38,119 nucleotides of DNA from NCBI GenBank assembly GCA_937871785.1, contig CALMON010000200.1, forward strand, positions 1 to 38,119. The letters run 5' to 3'. The stretch comes from an uncultured Granulicella sp. GTDB taxonomy: Bacteria; Acidobacteriota; Terriglobia; Terriglobales; Acidobacteriaceae. Shown piece after piece: positions 5,038 to 13,238 of the stretch. Every line of letters begins with the position of its first letter. The stretch's first letter is position 1. Made by a program: the position numbers and the translations under genes. The notes beneath the pieces were generated by a model. It ran no database searches, was not told the origin of the DNA, and saw nothing but the letters and a program-made list of their open reading frames with translations.

Positions 5038-5070
5038 GAGCCTGATATACCTTCTGTCGTGAGGGTTCCC

Positions 5071-5241
5071 ATGAAGAAGTCCGTGCTTCTCGCTGCAGTT
5101 CTGCTGATTGCTGTTACACCTGCGTTCGCGCAGAACGGTTGCGTCAACTCCCCTGAAAATCCTACGGTCATCCTGGCGCTCGTCGGCTCTGCCGGAGCTT
5201 TCCTGGCATCGGCGCGCTCGCACTTCGGCCGCCGCAAGTAG
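5071..5241 (+). CDS. Tiny exosortase-associated TM-motif-TM protein (SPENPT sorting signal)
   Basis: 56 residues from the ATG at 5071, with GAGGG just upstream; a GTG at 5059 would add four residues. The whole protein is a signal peptide (1-20, ending AFA), a short mature segment QNGCVNSPENPT (21-32), a hydrophobic helix (33-47) and a basic tail ending GRRK. The last three parts are the tripartite layout of a PEP-CTERM-like sorting signal, with SPENPT in the place of the PEP motif. It lies 143 bases before the exosortase gene. Tiny proteins of this TM-motif-TM build are known next to XrtJ exosortases in Acidobacteriota (recalled, not searched). After both cleavages only about a dozen residues, including one Cys, would remain outside the membrane. 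Confidence 0.82.
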   Translation: MKKSVLLAAVLLIAVTPAFAQNGCVNSPENPTVILALVGSAGAFLASARSHFGRRK

Positions 5242-5384
5242 CTTTCAGGTCACCACGCCCAGCGCTGGTGCCGGTTCAACTCGGCTGGCTTTCAAACCAG
5301 AACTCGGCACAAACCGGAAAGTATCTGCCTGTGGCTCCACTCCGGAAGAGGCGTGCGACGTCGTTTTCGTGAGAGAAAACGTGC
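5242..5384 (+). promoter_or_regulatory. Possible structured leader RNA upstream of the exosortase gene
   Basis: The 143 bases between the mini-protein and the exosortase hold nested complementary segments that could fold as a three-way junction. A closing helix pairs 5254-5259 (CACGCC) with 5350-5355 (GGCGTG). One arm pairs 5268-5273 with 5305-5310 and encloses 5285-5288/5297-5300. A second arm pairs 5314-5318 with 5341-5345. A separate 7-bp hairpin, 5362-5368 with 5375-5381, ends four bases before the exosortase ATG and holds the only purine-rich candidate ribosome site (GAGA) in its loop. I matched it to no known riboswitch class. The pairings are seen in the sequence; a regulatory role is inference. 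Confidence 0.4.
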
Positions 5385-7085
5385 ATGAAGATTGAGCTCC
5401 CGCGCTCCAGCTACAGGGAAACTGCTCTGGCCTCAGGCTCCGGCACCTCTCGTAGTTTCACACTTTCGAAAGGCCTTACCCTGTCGCAGTCGGCCGCGCT
5501 TTCCGCGTTGCTGTCCGTCGCGGGGGTGTTTTCCATTCTGTCCACGGCCATCTACCTGTGGGGTTTGTGGACGACCGACCCGCTCAAATCGATCGGCGGC
5601 CTGATTCCCATCGTCAGCTTCGTGTTGATCCTGCGCGCCTGGCGTTCGATTGGGTGGGAGATGGATGGCGCCTGGTGGGGCCTGCTCCTGCTCGCCGTCA
5701 CCGTGGTTACGGTACACATTCGCGACCGCGCCATCCTAGAGCTGGTGCTGTCGTCTTCCTGGGCCATTTTTGTTCCGCCCCACTCGCTGGTCGCGTTCGC
5801 CTATACGGCGGGCGCCGTGCTGCTGTTTGGCGGCGTCCGCCTGTTTCGAGCGGCGCTGTTCCCTATCGTTCTCACCTGGTTCGTCAACCCGGTCCCGAAC
5901 GCCTTCAACCTGCTGATCGACCTCCCGCTGCAGCACGCTTCGGCGAAGATCGCCCGCAGCTTCGCGCACCTGCTGGGCCAGCCGCTCACCTCCGACCAGC
6001 TCCGGCTGATGTTTACGCCAGACTTCGGTATGTTTATCGCCCCCGGCTGCAACGGCATTCGCGGCGCGATCACCATGGGCTTTATCGCGCTTATCGCCGG
6101 CTACGTGTATCGCTTCCGGCTTCGGTTCCATGTTCTTGCCGTGCTCGGCGCGATTTTGCTTGGCTACCTGTTCAACCTCATCCGCCTGTGCGTTCTGGTC
6201 CTCTACTATATTGTGGCGCTGCACATCCACTGGCTGCAAAGCCGCGCGGAAATGGGCGACTACATTATTGGCGCGTGCCTGTTTCTGATCGCGACGACCG
6301 TGCTTTTTACCGTCATCCTGCGGCTCAGCCCAACCCACAGCCTCCGCTTTCCGGCTCTTGCGCCACATGCCGACTCCGGCAGCCTGCTCGCGCCGAAATC
6401 CTTCCTTCCCCGGTTTGCGGCGCTTGCCCTGCTCATCGCGATTGGCAGCGTCAGCTATGCGCGCGCGCTTTCCGACCGCTCCGTTACGCAGGCCACTGCG
6501 CATCCCGACGCGCTCGGCCACTTCCCGCAGCATATCGGCGGCTACACCCTGGCGCGCGAGTGGAACGAGTACCTGGTCACCGGGGCGCTGATTTTTTACT
6601 GGGCAGACTACGCTCCCGACCACCCCTCGCCGAACCAACTGGAAGGCGGCGGCCGTGTGTCGGTCGGCATTTCGCCGGTGCTGGGAGCGCACGACACCTT
6701 GCTTTGCCACTCCGCGCGCGGAGAAGACTGGCTCTGGCACGACTCCGTCACCCTGCCCACAGCGGGCGTGCCGACCAGCTTCAGCGCGTCGTTTTATAAC
6801 GACGGCGCCACCCAGTATCTTGAAGCCACCACGCTCTGCACCGGCCCCACCTGCGGCCAGTACGCGTCGGCGCGCCAGCATTTCGGTTTCGTTTATAGCC
6901 GGCCAGACACCCACACGCTGCTGACGCAAAGCCCGGACCGCCCCATCCCCGTTCTGCTGCGGACCGAAACGACCGACACCGCCATGGCCCCGGACCGTGC
7001 GCGCGATGGGCTCGCCGCCAACCTGCGCGACTTCCTCGGTGCCGCCGACCTGGCTACGTTTACCCGAGCCGACCGCCAGCCCTGA
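5385..7085 (+). CDS. xrtJ: Exosortase (XrtJ type) with fused C-terminal EpsI-like domain
   Basis: 566 residues. Residues about 35-310 are a multi-pass membrane exosortase. The catalytic Cys is C222 in the APGCNGIR motif, the conserved Arg is R267 in FNLIRLCV, and the His is H280 or H282 in ALHIHW. Another membrane helix (about 343-360) then leads into an EpsI-like (DUF3485) extracytoplasmic domain (about 365-560). Exosortases are membrane transpeptidases that cleave PEP-CTERM-like signals and hand the protein on to the cell surface. The Cys-Arg-His triad is intact. The exosortase family is certain; the J subtype rests on the SPENPT mini-protein upstream and the apparent acidobacterial host. 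The leader before it may control expression. No glycan-biosynthesis locus, usual for exosortase systems, lies in the window. Confidence 0.88.
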   Translation: MKIELPRSSYRETALASGSGTSRSFTLSKGLTLSQSAALSALLSVAGVFSILSTAIYLWGLWTTDPLKSIGGLIPIVSFVLILRAWRSIGWEMDGAWWGLLLLAVTVVTVHIRDRAILELVLSSSWAIFVPPHSLVAFAYTAGAVLLFGGVRLFRAALFPIVLTWFVNPVPNAFNLLIDLPLQHASAKIARSFAHLLGQPLTSDQLRLMFTPDFGMFIAPGCNGIRGAITMGFIALIAGYVYRFRLRFHVLAVLGAILLGYLFNLIRLCVLVLYYIVALHIHWLQSRAEMGDYIIGACLFLIATTVLFTVILRLSPTHSLRFPALAPHADSGSLLAPKSFLPRFAALALLIAIGSVSYARALSDRSVTQATAHPDALGHFPQHIGGYTLAREWNEYLVTGALIFYWADYAPDHPSPNQLEGGGRVSVGISPVLGAHDTLLCHSARGEDWLWHDSVTLPTAGVPTSFSASFYNDGATQYLEATTLCTGPTCGQYASARQHFGFVYSRPDTHTLLTQSPDRPIPVLLRTETTDTAMAPDRARDGLAANLRDFLGAADLATFTRADRQP

Positions 7086-7229: not shown

Positions 7230-10121
7230 ATGCGCCAGATCCTGCTCCTTCCCGCCTTTTTTGCTGCTGCTCTCGGCCTTGCCGGATGCGGAAGTTCGTC
7301 GTCGACAACAACGACAACAACGACGACCACACCCACCGCACCGGCCGCGACGCTTTCCTCCACGCAGCTCAATTTCGCCGGCACCCTGGCGGGAACCACG
7401 ACCGCGGCCCAGACCGTGACGCTGACGAATAGCGGAACGGCGGCGCTGGCCATCAGTGGCATCACACTCGGCGGCACCAATACGTCCAACTTCACGCTGA
7501 CGAACGGTTGCTCCGGCTCGCTGGCCATCGGAGCGAACTGCACGTTTTCCGTCACCTTTTCCCCTACCGCTTCGCCCACCAGCTATTCGGCGACCGTCAG
7601 CGTCGTGACCAATGCGGCCACCGCCACCCAGACAGTAGCCTTGGCGGGAACCTCGCTGACGCCGGGCGCCACGCTATCGACCACCGGTCTCACCTTTGCT
7701 GGAACGGCCCCCGGAGCCAACAGCCCCGCGCAAACCGTGACGCTCACGAGCAGCGGAACGGCTCCGCTCACCATCGGCAGCGTCACGGTCGGCGGAACCA
7801 ACGGGTCGAATTTTACGTTGACCAACGGCTGCTCGGGCACCCTGGCCACTGGCGCCAGCTGCTCCTTTTCCGTGACGTTTGCCCCCGGAGCCTCGGCTAC
7901 CGCCGGCACCGTTGACATCGGCGCGATCAACATCATCACCAACGCGCCGACATCACCGCAGGCCGTCAATCTGATCGGCACCACGACAGCCTCGGCCGCG
8001 CCCACGGCCATCCTGTCGTCCACATCGCTCACCTTCCCGGCCACCGCTTCCGGAGCGACCAGCCCTTCGCAGACGGTAACGCTGTTCAACACCGGCACGG
8101 CCGCTCTTACCATCGGCAGCCTCACCCTGGGCGGCTCCAATGCGACGAACTTCACCCTGACCAGCGGCTGCGCCAACACGCTGGCGGCCGGTGCGAGCTG
8201 CCCGATTTCCGTCACCTTCTCCCCGGGCTCCGCGATCGCCACAATCGCGTACAGCGCCGCCATCACCCTGGTGACGAACGCCACTCCCGCCACCCAGACC
8301 ATCAGCCTTTCGAGCAGCAGCTCCGTCTCGTCGCAGTGTGCCGCCACCGTTCCGCGCAAGGCGAACCCGAGCACCACCAGCAACTACGCTGGTTCAACGT
8401 TCACCGGGAAAGTGCTTGCCGGAACCACCCCCATGATCGGTGCCAGCGTGCAGCTTTACGCTGCGGGAAGCGCTGGCAACGGGTCCACGCCGATGGCCAT
8501 CGGCTCTTCCACCGTTACCGACGCGAACGGCGCCTTCAGCATCACGAAGTCGTATACCTGCCCCTTCAACCTATCGACTCTGTACCTGGTGTCGACCGGG
8601 GGCAAGCCCGGCGCGACCGGCACGGCCAACTCAGGCGCGGTTCTGCTCAGCGTCCTCGGCACCTGCGCTTCGGTCACCACGGGTACCAGCTACGTCGTCG
8701 ACGAAGCCACCACTGTAGCGGGAGCTTACGCCTTGGCGCAGTTCCTCGTTCCTGGCGGCAAGGCCGGCGCCAGCTCCACCAACTTCCTCGGCCTGCAACT
8801 GGCGGCGGCCAGCGCGGCCAACCTCGTCAATCCGCTCACGGGAACCTCCCCCGGCGCCACCTTTCCCGCCAGCGCAACGCCTCCTTCTGCGCTGATCAAC
8901 ACGCTTGCGGATGTGCTCAACGCCTGCGTCGTGGGCGGCTCGTCGACGACGGCCTGCACGCAGCTGTACGCATCGGTGGGCAATAGCGTTTCCGCACTGC
9001 CCACCAACACGCTCGACGCGGTGCTGAGCCTCGCGCTCAATCCCGCTGCCGGAAAGAGCCTGTACACCTTGTCGCAGACGTCCACGGCCTACACCCCGGG
9101 GCTTACGGCGGCGCCTACCGACTGGACCATGTACATCACCTACACAGGCGGTGGCATGAACGGCCCGTCCGGAGTCGGCGTGGACTCGACGGGTAACGTC
9201 TGGGTCGCCAGCTACTTCAACGCAGCGTCCTACTTCACCAACACCGGAAAAGCGGTGTTCCCCACCGGCATCACCGGGAATTACTTGCAGGAGTCTTACG
9301 GGCTCGCCGTCGATCAGAGCGACAATGCCTGGATTCCGGACGAGCAGGGACCGTATGGCATCAACAGCGGCATCGGCTCTGTAACGGTGTTGAACACGGC
9401 TGGAAGCTCGGCGGCAGGTGCCACGGGATACTCGGCTGGGGGCATCAACTTCCCGGTTGCGGACGCGATCGATACTGGCGGCACCACCTGGGTGGTGGAC
9501 TACGGAAACTCGCACGTCACACTGCTGAACCCTTCCGGCACACCGATTTCCGGTACCTCCGGCTACGCCAGCAACCTGTTCGACTTTCCCGTTGCCGTGG
9601 CTGTCGACGCCAACTGCTACGGCTACATCGCCAACCAGAGCAGCAACACAATCACCCGCGTGGCACAGGACGGCAGCAGCTTCACGAACTTTGTCGTCGG
9701 CAGCGGTGCCTCCGGGGTCGCCGTCGATGCCGGCAATAACGTCTGGTCGGCCAACTACTACGGCAACTCGGTCGGCCTGCTGGCGGCAAATGGAACGGTT
9801 GTTTCAAGCAGCTTGTCCGGTGGCGGCATCAACCATCCGCAGGGAGTTGCCATTGACGGCAACGGTAACGTCTGGTTGACGAACTACCGCGGACCGGCTC
9901 TCACCGAGCTGTCGGCGGCGACGAGCACCTCCCCTGGAGCAGCGCTTTCGCCCTCGGTCGGCTACGGTCCAGACGCGAACCTGCTGGAAGCGTTTGGGTT
10001 GGCGATCGACCCGAGCGGCAACATCTGGGTCACGAACTTCGGCAACAACACGCTGACGGAGTTCATCGGCATCGCCGCCCCGGTCAAAACGCCGCGGTTC
10101 GGACCAGTCGTTCAGCCGTAG
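7230..10121 (+). CDS. Choice-of-anchor-D lipoprotein with NHL-like beta-propeller
   Basis: 963 residues from the ATG at 7230. Signal peptide with lipobox LAGC (near residue 20), then a Ser/Thr run encoded by ACA/ACG repeats, which is a likely surface linker. Three Ig-like repeats of about 105 residues follow (about 37-355), each with QTVTL near the start, NFTLT, and a Cys pair (NGCSG/GANC-type); these are choice-of-anchor-D (ASPM/SPD-2/Hydin-like) domains. A central segment (about 360-640) with a carboxypeptidase-regulatory-like fold candidate follows, and the C-terminal third is a propeller with repeated GVAVD..GNVWVANY units typical of NHL/SMP-30-like proteins. It is probably displayed on the cell surface. 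It lacks a C-terminal PEP-CTERM signal, so it is not an obvious exosortase cargo despite lying 144 bases downstream. A terminator follows. Confidence 0.85.
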   Translation: MRQILLLPAFFAAALGLAGCGSSSSTTTTTTTTTPTAPAATLSSTQLNFAGTLAGTTTAAQTVTLTNSGTAALAISGITLGGTNTSNFTLTNGCSGSLAIGANCTFSVTFSPTASPTSYSATVSVVTNAATATQTVALAGTSLTPGATLSTTGLTFAGTAPGANSPAQTVTLTSSGTAPLTIGSVTVGGTNGSNFTLTNGCSGTLATGASCSFSVTFAPGASATAGTVDIGAINIITNAPTSPQAVNLIGTTTASAAPTAILSSTSLTFPATASGATSPSQTVTLFNTGTAALTIGSLTLGGSNATNFTLTSGCANTLAAGASCPISVTFSPGSAIATIAYSAAITLVTNATPATQTISLSSSSSVSSQCAATVPRKANPSTTSNYAGSTFTGKVLAGTTPMIGASVQLYAAGSAGNGSTPMAIGSSTVTDANGAFSITKSYTCPFNLSTLYLVSTGGKPGATGTANSGAVLLSVLGTCASVTTGTSYVVDEATTVAGAYALAQFLVPGGKAGASSTNFLGLQLAAASAANLVNPLTGTSPGATFPASATPPSALINTLADVLNACVVGGSSTTACTQLYASVGNSVSALPTNTLDAVLSLALNPAAGKSLYTLSQTSTAYTPGLTAAPTDWTMYITYTGGGMNGPSGVGVDSTGNVWVASYFNAASYFTNTGKAVFPTGITGNYLQESYGLAVDQSDNAWIPDEQGPYGINSGIGSVTVLNTAGSSAAGATGYSAGGINFPVADAIDTGGTTWVVDYGNSHVTLLNPSGTPISGTSGYASNLFDFPVAVAVDANCYGYIANQSSNTITRVAQDGSSFTNFVVGSGASGVAVDAGNNVWSANYYGNSVGLLAANGTVVSSSLSGGGINHPQGVAIDGNGNVWLTNYRGPALTELSAATSTSPGAALSPSVGYGPDANLLEAFGLAIDPSGNIWVTNFGNNTLTEFIGIAAPVKTPRFGPVVQP

Positions 10122-10701: not shown

Positions 10702-11925
10702 TTACGGGTTGACCAGCGAGCTGGAGTGCTCGCCATTGGCAGCCGTTGCAACACACGAAAGCTGATTGCCCGCGGAAAAGGCCGTGTTCTCAATCGCTTT
10801 CAGGGCGCCGGTGTGTGGGTCCAACTGGGCACCAGAAACCGAATTGTCCAGGTAGTTGGAGGTGTACAGGTAGATACCCAAGGCAGGTTCGATGGTGACA
10901 CAGGTCGGTCCCGTAGCGACCGTGGTACCGTTCGTTCCGGCAACTCCCGAAGGTTGACCGCTTGCCGGATCAAGAACATAGGTTCCCACCGTGCTGGCAC
11001 CGTAGTTAGCGGTATACAGGTACTTGCCACGCGGGTCGATCGTCACGTTTACGGGGAAGAACCCCGTCAGGAACGGGGCGTTCACCATGGCTGTGAGTGT
11101 TCCCGGTGAAGTCGAGCCGATAACGTTATATCCGTAGAGCTGGTTCGTGGCTTTGTCCGTCACATACACGAAGCGCGACGTGGGGTCCTCAACAATGCCA
11201 CTGGGGCTAACGCCTGCCGAAAAGCCGGTAGCCACTGTTTTGTTGCTGACCGTCGTGATCGTCGTTCCGGGAACAGGGCTCAACGCTCCGGTCGTGGTAT
11301 TTTGCGCAAAGCCGAGAACCTGCCCCTGCGCCGTGCCGGAGCTGTTTGTATCCGCGTCGACCACATACACAAAGTGCGTCAGGGCGCTGGTCGCCACACC
11401 CACGGGATTGTTTCCGACGTTCTGCGTCGTCGGTGTACCGAGGCTGTTGTCACTGTTGATCGGGAAAATGGTTACGCCGCCGGGGCCGGGGGACGCCGGT
11501 GTAAAGCCGTTCTGGTAGGTGAACGTCACATACAGGAACGCGCCGGCCGGGTCGATCGCGGCCGCGGTCGGATAGCTTCCCGTGATGTTGTACTGGTGTT
11601 GGCCGTAAAGCTTGCCATCGGTGCCGATGGCCAACTCGGTCACCTTGTTGTCCTGGCTGCCACCGATCACGTAGATGAACTTGCCATTCGGCGCCGTCAC
11701 GATGCTGACCGGGTTCGTCAACTGCGACGTAAACGGCGAGCCGGCAATCTGAGTCAGCGAACCAGTCTGGTAATCCACGTTGAACGCCGACACGCCGCCG
11801 TTCTGCGCTGAAACCGCGTACACATACGCCACCGTATAGTCGCGGCTGCAGGCCGTTATGCCGAGCCCGGTAGCGAGGGACACCATGGTGGCCAATGCCG
11901 CGCGGCCAATCTTGTTACGCTTCAT
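10702..11925 (-). CDS. Lactonase-family beta-propeller lipoprotein (paralogue A)
   Basis: 407 residues with a lipoprotein signal (hydrophobic 9-24, then ITAC) and a seven-bladed-type propeller built of about 45-60-residue repeats. Recurring elements are a blade ending in YVYAVS, FIYVIGG or YLYTANYG followed by a G-x-L/V turn, as in YVDPxTGxL-type YncE/6-phosphogluconolactonase-like proteins. In this group the fold is certain but enzyme activity rarely is; the lipid anchor argues for an envelope role rather than the pentose phosphate pathway. The ATG at 11925 has AAGGAAAGCGC in front. It is a tandem paralogue of the gene at 12027-13238, with 101 bases between them, and ends at a strong hairpin. 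Confidence 0.85.
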   Translation of the reverse strand: MKRNKIGRAALATMVSLATGLGITACSRDYTVAYVYAVSAQNGGVSAFNVDYQTGSLTQIAGSPFTSQLTNPVSIVTAPNGKFIYVIGGSQDNKVTELAIGTDGKLYGQHQYNITGSYPTAAAIDPAGAFLYVTFTYQNGFTPASPGPGGVTIFPINSDNSLGTPTTQNVGNNPVGVATSALTHFVYVVDADTNSSGTAQGQVLGFAQNTTTGALSPVPGTTITTVSNKTVATGFSAGVSPSGIVEDPTSRFVYVTDKATNQLYGYNVIGSTSPGTLTAMVNAPFLTGFFPVNVTIDPRGKYLYTANYGASTVGTYVLDPASGQPSGVAGTNGTTVATGPTCVTIEPALGIYLYTSNYLDNSVSGAQLDPHTGALKAIENTAFSAGNQLSCVATAANGEHSSSLVNP

Positions 11926-11951
11926 GCGCTTTCCTTACGTCGAACCGGGGA

Positions 11952-11987
11952 TTCCGGCCCTTGTTGGTCCAGCCGATGGGGCCGGAA
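11952..11987 (-). terminator. Hairpin between the two lactonase-like genes
   Basis: TTCCGGCCC (11952-11960) pairs with GGGCCGGAA (11979-11987). A second small hairpin, CCCGCC (12008-12013) with GGCGGG (12019-12024), lies directly past the stop at 12027. Neither has a U tract on the minus strand, so these may be weak terminators or RNA-stabilising hairpins. Confidence 0.35.
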
Positions 11988-12026
11988 CGTACTCGTGGTT
12001 CCACCACCCCGCCTTGGGGGCGGGAG

Positions 12027-13238
12027 TTAGTTCACGTTGCCGCTGATGGCCAGGCACTTGGCGACGCCGCTGGCAGGGAACGTCGACCCGCGTGACAAGC
12101 TCGACAGTTCGCCCGTCGTCGAATCGATGACCTTACCGGTCACCGTTCCGTCGTTCTGGTTGGACACATAGATGTACTGGTTGGTGGGGTCTTCGACCAT
12201 GCACACCGGGTTAGAGCCTACCGTGTAGGGCGAACCCGCAATGGCCTGCAGTTGGCTGGTCGATGCGTTGATCGTGAACGCCGAAATCGAGCTGAAGGGT
12301 CCTGTCGGTGTCGGATTCGCGGTTGCATTCAGCACATACAGGTACTTGCCGCTGTTATCCACCAGCGAGTAAACCGGGTTGCTGGTGCCCGTGATGTTGT
12401 TCACGACGCCACCGGTCAGCGGCGTCAGCGCGCAGCTTGCACCCACGGTGTACGGGAAGATTCTGTTCGAAGGCCCATCTGTCATGTAGATGTTGGCGCC
12501 ATTGCCGTTGATCGAGGTCAATCCACTCGCACCGACGATCGAGATTTCGCCGCTGGTCGTAGTTGCCAGCACGCCACTGGTGCCAAAAGCGTAGGGGAAT
12601 ACCGCGTTCTGGGTGGAATCGAGCGTCAGCAGACAGCCGCCGGCGGTCTTCATCATGATGGGCGCCACGCCGACGTTGAAGTAAGGGATGCCGGCCGGAA
12701 ACGCCGTCGTCTTCACATTGGTGTTCACCACCAGCGTCAGGCGGCCGGTGTCCGCATCGGACGAAAACGCCGTGATCGAGCCCACGCCAGAGCCATCGGG
12801 GGAAAAGCGATCCAGCACATAAAGGTATTGGCCGGTACCGTCAAACTGCGCCCACACGGGAATTTGGCCCTGACTGGAATACGTTTGCTGAAAGGTAAGC
12901 ACGCCGTCGTTGCCGACGCTGTAGAGCGAAATGCCGCTCGAGGTTGCCTTGGTTTTCGCGTCGCCGCCCGTGCCCTGGTTGATCACGTAGACGAATCGTC
13001 CGGCGGCCTTCACCACGATCGACACCGGGTTCACGCCACCCGAGCTGTACGGCGACCCGGGCGACTGCGTCAGGTTGCCGGTAAAGTCGTCGATCTTGTA
13101 CCCCGTGATCTGGTTGTACTGGTCGCCCAGAACCCACATAAAACCGACCGTGCCGCCGCCGCAGGCGGTCATCCCCAAACCCAGTGCCAATGCTGCAAAC
13201 GTAGCCGTGGCTACACGGCCAATCGAACGAAACTTCAT
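12027..13238 (-). CDS. Lactonase-family beta-propeller lipoprotein (paralogue B)
   Basis: 403 residues. Lipoprotein signal ending in MTACGGG, then the same propeller architecture as the downstream neighbour, with repeated blades such as FVYVINQGTG, YLYVLDRFS, YLYVLNATAN and YIYVSNQND. Shared phrases (a GSPYSSGGVNPVSIV blade here, GSPFTSQLTNPVSIV there) show the two arose by tandem duplication and then diverged. The Shine-Dalgarno region AAAGGAAGCGC before the ATG at 13238 matches that of the MlaD-like gene. A cell-envelope binding or scaffold role is inferred from the lipid anchor; lactonase activity is not established by sequence. Confidence 0.85.
   Translation of the reverse strand: MKFRSIGRVATATFAALALGLGMTACGGGTVGFMWVLGDQYNQITGYKIDDFTGNLTQSPGSPYSSGGVNPVSIVVKAAGRFVYVINQGTGGDAKTKATSSGISLYSVGNDGVLTFQQTYSSQGQIPVWAQFDGTGQYLYVLDRFSPDGSGVGSITAFSSDADTGRLTLVVNTNVKTTAFPAGIPYFNVGVAPIMMKTAGGCLLTLDSTQNAVFPYAFGTSGVLATTTSGEISIVGASGLTSINGNGANIYMTDGPSNRIFPYTVGASCALTPLTGGVVNNITGTSNPVYSLVDNSGKYLYVLNATANPTPTGPFSSISAFTINASTSQLQAIAGSPYTVGSNPVCMVEDPTNQYIYVSNQNDGTVTGKVIDSTTGELSSLSRGSTFPASGVAKCLAISGNVN

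Follow-up and report, generated by a model that had tools for sequence, protein, structure and literature searches.

Exosortase J and its 56-residue PExPT-CTERM target in an uncultured Granulicella: conservation, recurrent neighbors, and a possible peptide product

The locus and its genes

We analyzed a 38,119-nucleotide stretch of DNA from an uncultured Granulicella sp., a soil bacterium (hereafter, the window), in which a gene for a 56-aa protein (positions 5071–5241, + strand) precedes an exosortase gene that starts 143 nt after its stop. The mini-gene begins with ATG at 5071, directly preceded by a GAGGG run, and its stop ends at 5241; a start at the GTG at 5059 would lengthen the product by four residues. 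The full mini-protein, MKKSVLLAAVLLIAVTPAFAQNGCVNSPENPTVILALVGSAGAFLASARSHFGRRK, is composed, in order, of a signal peptide, MKKSVLLAAVLLIAVTPAFA (residues 1–20; 5071–5130), the segment QNGCVNSPENPT, a hydrophobic helix, VILALVGSAGAFLASA, and the basic tail RSHFGRRK (helix and tail, 5167–5238; helix dN/dS 0.05–0.07). Judging from the sequence, signal peptidase is predicted to cut after AFA, and a cut by the exosortase before Thr32 would leave the mature peptide QNGCVNSPENP (residues 21–31; 5131–5163), which contains Cys24 (5140–5142) and most of the SPENPT sorting motif (5149–5166). The coordinates, frame, residues, and parts reported in the first-pass annotation of this DNA agree with the sequence. 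Residues preceding the Cys of bacterial lipoproteins follow the lipobox rule, to which the mini-protein does not conform: in the alignment, its Cys closes a Q-x-G-C.

The mini-protein matched the NCBIfam family TIGR04200 (“targ_of_XrtJ”, PExPT-CTERM protein) at 83 bits (cut-off, 40; E = 8.9e-24), with residues 5–56 aligning to positions 6–57 of the 57-position profile, and it adjoins exosortase J (XrtJ), as membership implies. Given this E value and the purifying selection among relatives described below, the mini-gene is no chance open reading frame; moreover, as the model has only 57 positions, small size is a trait of the known family and not of this copy. The enzyme and mini-protein pair is already catalogued as TIGR04199/TIGR04200, and both window proteins pass the cut-offs with no difference in kind. 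The annotation had described the purpose of the mini-protein as undescribed, which may hold for its function but not for the family, since this is a named pair; a whole-word search of a literature library found no paper naming XrtJ, exosortase J, TIGR04199, TIGR04200, or PExPT-CTERM. Three features discussed below, namely the NHL neighbor, the association of SPECPT paralogues with polysaccharide loci, and the active-site Asp, are absent from the TIGR04199/TIGR04200 entries as retrieved.

The adjoining gene (5385–7085, + strand) encodes XrtJ (566 aa), which matched TIGR04199 (“exosortase J”) over nearly the whole model at 748 bits (cut-off, 200). It carries the exosortase/archaeosortase domain PF09721 (119 bits), and both the presumed nucleophile Cys222 (in PGCNGIRG; 6048–6050) and the presumed catalytic Arg267 (6183–6185) occur without exception in a set of 43 XrtJ-like sequences of full length and line up with the Cys and Arg of nine further exosortases from the order. 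A His is the defining third catalytic residue of the exosortase superfamily. Eight of the nine compared enzymes, presumably all eight of the XrtA type, have this His four residues before a Gly, whereas XrtJ has Asp292 (6258–6260; D-x3-G versus H-x3-G), invariant in the 43 sequences and present in XrtJ generally; Asp292 was placed by its distance to Gly296, the MAFFT alignment being gapped at that spot. The ninth, which adjoins a tagged gene in another genome (G193), also has Asp at the third catalytic place. Since Asp is common to the whole named family, which also passes PF09721, we filed the enzyme as exosortase J. As placed by spacing, an Asp at the position of the third catalytic His of other exosortases is a newly observed feature of XrtJ. 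Eighteen relatives of the enzyme on named contigs belong to Granulicella, Edaphobacter, Acidobacterium, and other Acidobacteria.

The C-terminal 195 residues of XrtJ (6498–7082), which lie inside the TIGR04199 match, form a fused domain with invariant His436, Cys485, and Cys490 (43 sequences). We call this domain EpsI-like by its position and by the fusion of EpsI to EpsH proteins described in PMC1569441, and not by a profile match. An AlphaFold2 model of whole XrtJ reached a mean pLDDT of 85 and a pTM of 0.84, and a model of the domain reached a pLDDT of 86, both models being confident. A sequence search with XrtJ matched no solved structure, and Foldseek returned no match at E ≤ 0.001 for the models of the whole protein or the C-terminal domain. 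The first twelve fold matches of the domain included SciW, DcrB, and PsbP at E values of 0.014–0.1, below significance; SciW binds a transmembrane domain according to its PDB title, which would suit a helper for the hydrophobic tail, this match being equally below significance. In one genome (G073; L096 and L104), XrtJ looks split, with the EpsI-like part encoded as a gene of its own behind a short exosortase; next to an orphan target, this genome has another EpsI-like stretch, whose match is interrupted by a stop.

Downstream of XrtJ lies a gene for an NHL/choice-of-anchor-D protein (7230–10121, + strand; NF012200 and NHL matches; cluster c2), with a lipobox recognized by eye. Further downstream, two neighboring genes on the − strand (10703–13238) encode Lactonase-type beta-propeller proteins, both of which are probably lipoproteins, again judged by eye.

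Distribution and conservation of the pair

We investigated the distribution of both families. The window's own genome (83% complete) yielded five over-cut-off TIGR04200 genes together with two XrtJ genes, and no further exosortase was found in this 83%-complete assembly. One of the paralogues (L072; G000:C47:40659-40832) has four Cys in its mature part, GGCDNTCTPCTNSPECPT. Among 200 genomes of the order, for which the best 30 candidates per genome were scored and target counts are hence lower bounds, the target was detected over the cut-off in at least 42 genomes and XrtJ in 40. At least 39 genomes held both families, which supports the earlier description of an exosortase and a partner substrate consisting almost wholly of sorting signal. 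Among the matches listed, three genomes had only the target (G069, G167, and G193) and one only XrtJ (G150, with a sub-cut-off tagged gene upstream of it); in G193, an exosortase adjoins the target, scoring 82 bits and thus below the XrtJ cut-off. In a 396-genome draw of the phylum (best 16 candidates per genome scored), at least 17 genomes had TIGR04200 over the cut-off, all of them in the window's own family.

Of the 50 over-cut-off XrtJ genes, 46 had a same-strand tagged gene no more than 3 kb upstream (two of the tagged genes being sub-cut-off), and 46 of the 47 adjacent pairs were spaced by 106–270 nt; in the remaining pair, an NHL gene lies within an interval of 2131 nt. A motif scan near the four XrtJ genes without a tagged gene (L085, L106, L107, and L108) found no hidden target. 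The mini-protein had been called a private substrate, which does not hold: five targets accompany two XrtJ in its own genome, and 26 of the at least 71 over-cut-off targets in the 200 genomes do not adjoin XrtJ. G167 (93% complete) carries at least seven open target genes, one with Leu for the motif Ser, and our searches found neither an exosortase nor an EpsI-like domain in it; as this genome is 93% complete, the absence of XrtJ could be a gap. G069 has an intact target without XrtJ, with another exosortase present. In G088, which has neither XrtJ nor target, a 43-aa frame (L223; G088:C1:1782612-1782737) resembles the XrtJ end (20.7 bits, E = 6e-4) and sits between a gene that looks frr-like by eye and an Omp85 gene; this frame is possibly what remains of a lost pair.

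Conservation was counted over 65 distinct sequences, obtained from 69 of the 71 over-cut-off targets (G141:C1:48661, G083:C1:1004718, and all sub-cut-off targets were left out). Pro28, Glu29, Pro31, and Thr32 (P-E-x-P-T) were invariant in all 65, followed by Cys24 (64), Gly23 (63), Ser27 (61), Ala20 (60), and Gln21 (58), the last two on either side of the predicted signal peptidase cut. The Cys sits at a fixed spot three residues before the motif, and the conserved pattern is Q-x-G-C-x-x followed by SPExPT. For 52 close pairs drawn from 23 target sequences, dN/dS was approximately 0.002 in the motif, 0.05 in the helix, 0.16 at positions −20 to −7, and 0.19 in the six pre-motif residues, and for a wider set of 107 pairs it was 0.035 in segment plus motif versus 0.24 in the signal peptide, all of these values being descriptive only because the pairs have sequences in common. 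Cys24 underwent no non-synonymous change across the 52 close pairs, its codon changing synonymously; among the six pre-motif residues, Gln and Gly had few replacements, and positions −5, −2, and −1 were free to vary. The 12-residue segment is thus not uniformly conserved: with respect to the proposed check on the mature segment, the Cys and Q-x-G-C are kept, but the other three residues vary.

The fixed Cys raises the question of whether it is itself the modified residue, in which case the product may be a Cys-lipidated lipopeptide, lipidated first and relieved of its tail afterwards, as proposed for MYXO-CTERM. Near-invariance of a Cys three residues before the motif would fit this, and the likeness extends to the MYXO-CTERM proteins, where cleavage requires an invariant Cys that lies a short way ahead of the helix and basic tail and is proposed to be lipidated (PMC11980579). 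The systems differ in that myxosortase is a CPBP-family protease (PMC11980579) with a cell-surface receptor as its prototype substrate and MYXO-CTERM has no PExPT motif, whereas the enzyme adjoining the mini-gene is an exosortase of PF09721. The residues before the Cys, mostly Q-x-G, also form no normal lipobox. We regard a lipidated Cys as unlikely.

Neighboring genes

We examined gene neighborhoods in 60 stretches of up to 20 kb together with the window, which were gene-called and clustered by a custom script. Two arrangements recurred: target–XrtJ–NHL protein, as in the window, and target–XrtJ–Omp85. At least 26 of the 50 XrtJ genes had a match of the c2 (NHL) type no farther than 2.5 kb away, and the target–XrtJ–NHL arrangement sits largely at one syntenic site, which we count as one event. 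NHL genes also flank targets elsewhere, namely five of the at least seven G167 targets (one of these NHL genes being a remnant) and targets in G186, G192, G073, G155, and, with XrtJ, G084. The G167 loci (L073–L079) hold PExPT minis, and the NHL remnant adjoining one of them contains stops; in G155, a sub-cut-off target lies between two NHL genes. Eight of 17 orphan targets (eight genomes) lay within 3.5 kb of an NHL match against 0.40 expected (Poisson P ~ 1e-8), a P value that is indicative only because the genomes were chosen after seeing the neighborhoods and the NHL gene numbers were estimated, namely from match counts. Four of these 17 (in G162, G084, and two in G034) were entered as non-adjacent from coordinates and maps. 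The repeated occurrence of targets near genes for NHL beta-propellers, including targets that no exosortase adjoins, is a new observation.

The linkage is local. We rejected the NHL family as a strict phylogenetic partner because it also occurs in genomes without targets (e.g., G008, G040, and G045) and because, at E 1e-40, the best six candidates per genome included no member of it in G043, G128, and G170, which have XrtJ and target. One might still suppose that the mini-peptide acts as a sorting signal in trans, bonded to the NHL protein (its Cys might, for instance, form a disulfide) and carrying it to the surface or to polysaccharide. The repeated pairing at unrelated sites, on the same strand except in G073, would be expected under such an arrangement. 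Conversely, many NHL proteins have a lipobox of their own (11 of 22 as called, several others having truncated starts in the gene calls), so that a second anchor would be unneeded, the tail-model matches listed for the own and 35 further genomes (see below) include no NHL–PExPT fusion, and the weakly matched 710–717-aa frames from other families of the phylum lack the PExPT motif. Delivery in trans is, in our judgment, quite improbable.

SPECPT-type targets, eight in number and all in the window's genus, showed another linkage: five of the eight, as orphans, head a cluster whose first genes are c22 and c23; in the window's genome, c22 encodes a Poly_export/SLBB protein (L071 copy) and c23 a protein like Wzz/GNVR. 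The SPECPT gene lies directly before c22 in L071, L092, L094, and L095, and in L093 one small opposite-strand open reading frame intervenes. This position at the head of a polysaccharide-export cluster is likewise newly observed, and it is one synteny in one genus; much of both the XrtJ–NHL and the SPECPT–polysaccharide linkage is shared synteny, reflecting few independent events. G009, of the sister family, has a tagged pair with a Poly_export gene and an exosortase close by. Exosortases have classically been linked to exopolysaccharide (PMC1569441 and PMC12188702).

Two other candidate partners were rejected. The Omp85 protein (five POTRA matches) was dropped after inspection of control genomes, because Omp85 occurs without XrtJ or target (two proteins in G088) and away from XrtJ (G034 and G074); we take this neighbor to be BamA kept by synteny, the adjoining c11 looking like frr by eye. 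A two-component/chemotaxis link was seen at two orphans only (L072 and L078), chemotaxis genes adjoining one and a response regulator lying near the other, and was not recurrent. Within the part of the clustered neighbors that was searched, no receptor or regulator gene recurred.

Tagged proteins, related systems, and a possible product

To our knowledge, no bacterial exosortase product has been chemically defined. We searched for larger proteins bearing the same tail with a tail-only model built from 33 rows. In the window's own genome (83% complete), the best 150 of 240 candidates yielded five tagged open reading frames, all minis of 52–62 aa as called, and no larger tagged protein; the next match was at chance level (12.7 bits, E = 0.7). 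The concern that large proteins of this genome might share the tail thus found no support among these 150 candidates. In 35 further genomes (best 150 candidates per genome scored), tagged proteins clearly longer than the minis occurred in G160, G150, G003, G009, G013, and G015. Those of the sister family (G003, G009, G013, and G015) were often of low complexity and mostly 86–158 aa as called, with two more of at most 120–149 aa; G160, of the window's genus, had a longer Gly-rich one and G150 a single one. All of these are still small. Sub-cut-off frames elsewhere in the phylum (G418, 710 aa; G439, 717 aa; G300, 143 aa) were rejected as chance matches without PExPT. Four matches of 16–20 bits (G186:C57, G069:C16:288987, G155:C9, and G035:C62) covered profile positions from 6 or 9 onward only.

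Longer tagged proteins in the sister family might suggest that the minis are shrunken remains of such surface proteins, and the places where XrtJ is missing, together with the possible 43-aa remnant in G088, would be in keeping with decay. The low dN/dS of the motif, the near-invariant Cys, and the several open paralogues per genome speak against decay, and we hold this origin to be quite improbable too. As for the window copy, the suggestion that it is a degraded one is answered by P-E-x-P-T invariant in 65 of 65 relatives, Cys in 64 of 65, and a motif dN/dS of approximately 0.002.

The pair resembles XrtA/EpsH and PEP-CTERM in its signal peptide, Pro-Glu motif, helix, basic tail, and membrane Cys enzyme, as well as in the exopolysaccharide-gene link (PMC1569441). 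The tagged proteins of PEP-CTERM genomes are highly diverse, with a median of eight per genome (PMC1569441), whereas here we find near-identical minis with a fixed Cys and an enzyme with Asp for His. Archaeosortase A, which acts on PGF-CTERM proteins, is likewise an exosortase-like enzyme, and cleavage is accompanied by C-terminal lipid attachment in that system; its substrates differ in including the large S-layer glycoprotein (PMC7157517 for both points).

We propose that the mini-gene encodes a minimal dedicated substrate of XrtJ. Sec would export the mini-protein, and once signal peptidase had cut behind AFA, a single helix and the basic tail would hold QNGCVNSPENPT at the inner membrane, on its outer face. 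Cys222 of XrtJ would then attack at the PENP-T motif, the helix would be discarded, and the new C-terminus would be passed to a lipid or glycan acceptor. Most likely, XrtJ removes the tail and links the remaining 11 residues to a lipid or glycan at the surface, the product being a surface-bound, Cys-containing peptide of approximately 11 residues. This peptide may work with the co-encoded NHL beta-propeller lipoprotein and, for some paralogues, with the exopolysaccharide export locus. For this reading as a whole, partner included, we see about an even chance. Pairing, conserved anatomy, purifying selection, and recurrent neighbors are observed here; the two cut sites, the transfer, the acceptor, the NHL partnership, and the function are what we infer from them. 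G167, with targets and no exosortase found, and G069, with a target and no XrtJ, speak against a simple enzyme–substrate view, as do, for the substrate model, the four XrtJ genes without a tagged gene nearby and an XrtJ lacking the usual third His.

AgrB and AgrD offer a likeness of another kind, in which a tiny one-Cys precursor has its C-terminal tail removed by a dedicated membrane cysteine protease. Small size and such a protease, along with several paralogues that differ at positions −5, −2, and −1, would be compatible with a released signaling peptide or with a regulator that titrates XrtJ. Unlike in AgrB/AgrD, no receptor or regulator gene recurs near the mini/XrtJ pair in the part of the clustered neighbors searched. 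The first-pass annotation had raised the possibility of a test substrate controlling the enzyme, which finds no support, G167 keeping at least seven target genes while our searches found no exosortase there to titrate; we consider a signal or titrating regulator very unlikely. Ring formation is speculation here, and the further idea that XrtJ is a peptide maker, with the mini-protein Cys capturing the acyl-enzyme to give a cyclic thiolactone, displayed or released, that is read by the NHL lipoprotein, strikes us as highly improbable; if true, exosortases would include a peptide-cyclizing branch.

A surface-attached peptide made by XrtJ remains our preferred reading. With a 56-residue substrate and a mature product predicted at approximately 11 residues, this pair would be about the simplest system for locating the cleavage position and identifying the attached group by mass spectrometry, and the NHL neighbor and the fixed Cys are concrete starting points for tests. 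Were the peptide itself to be the product, exosortases would do more than anchor larger surface proteins.
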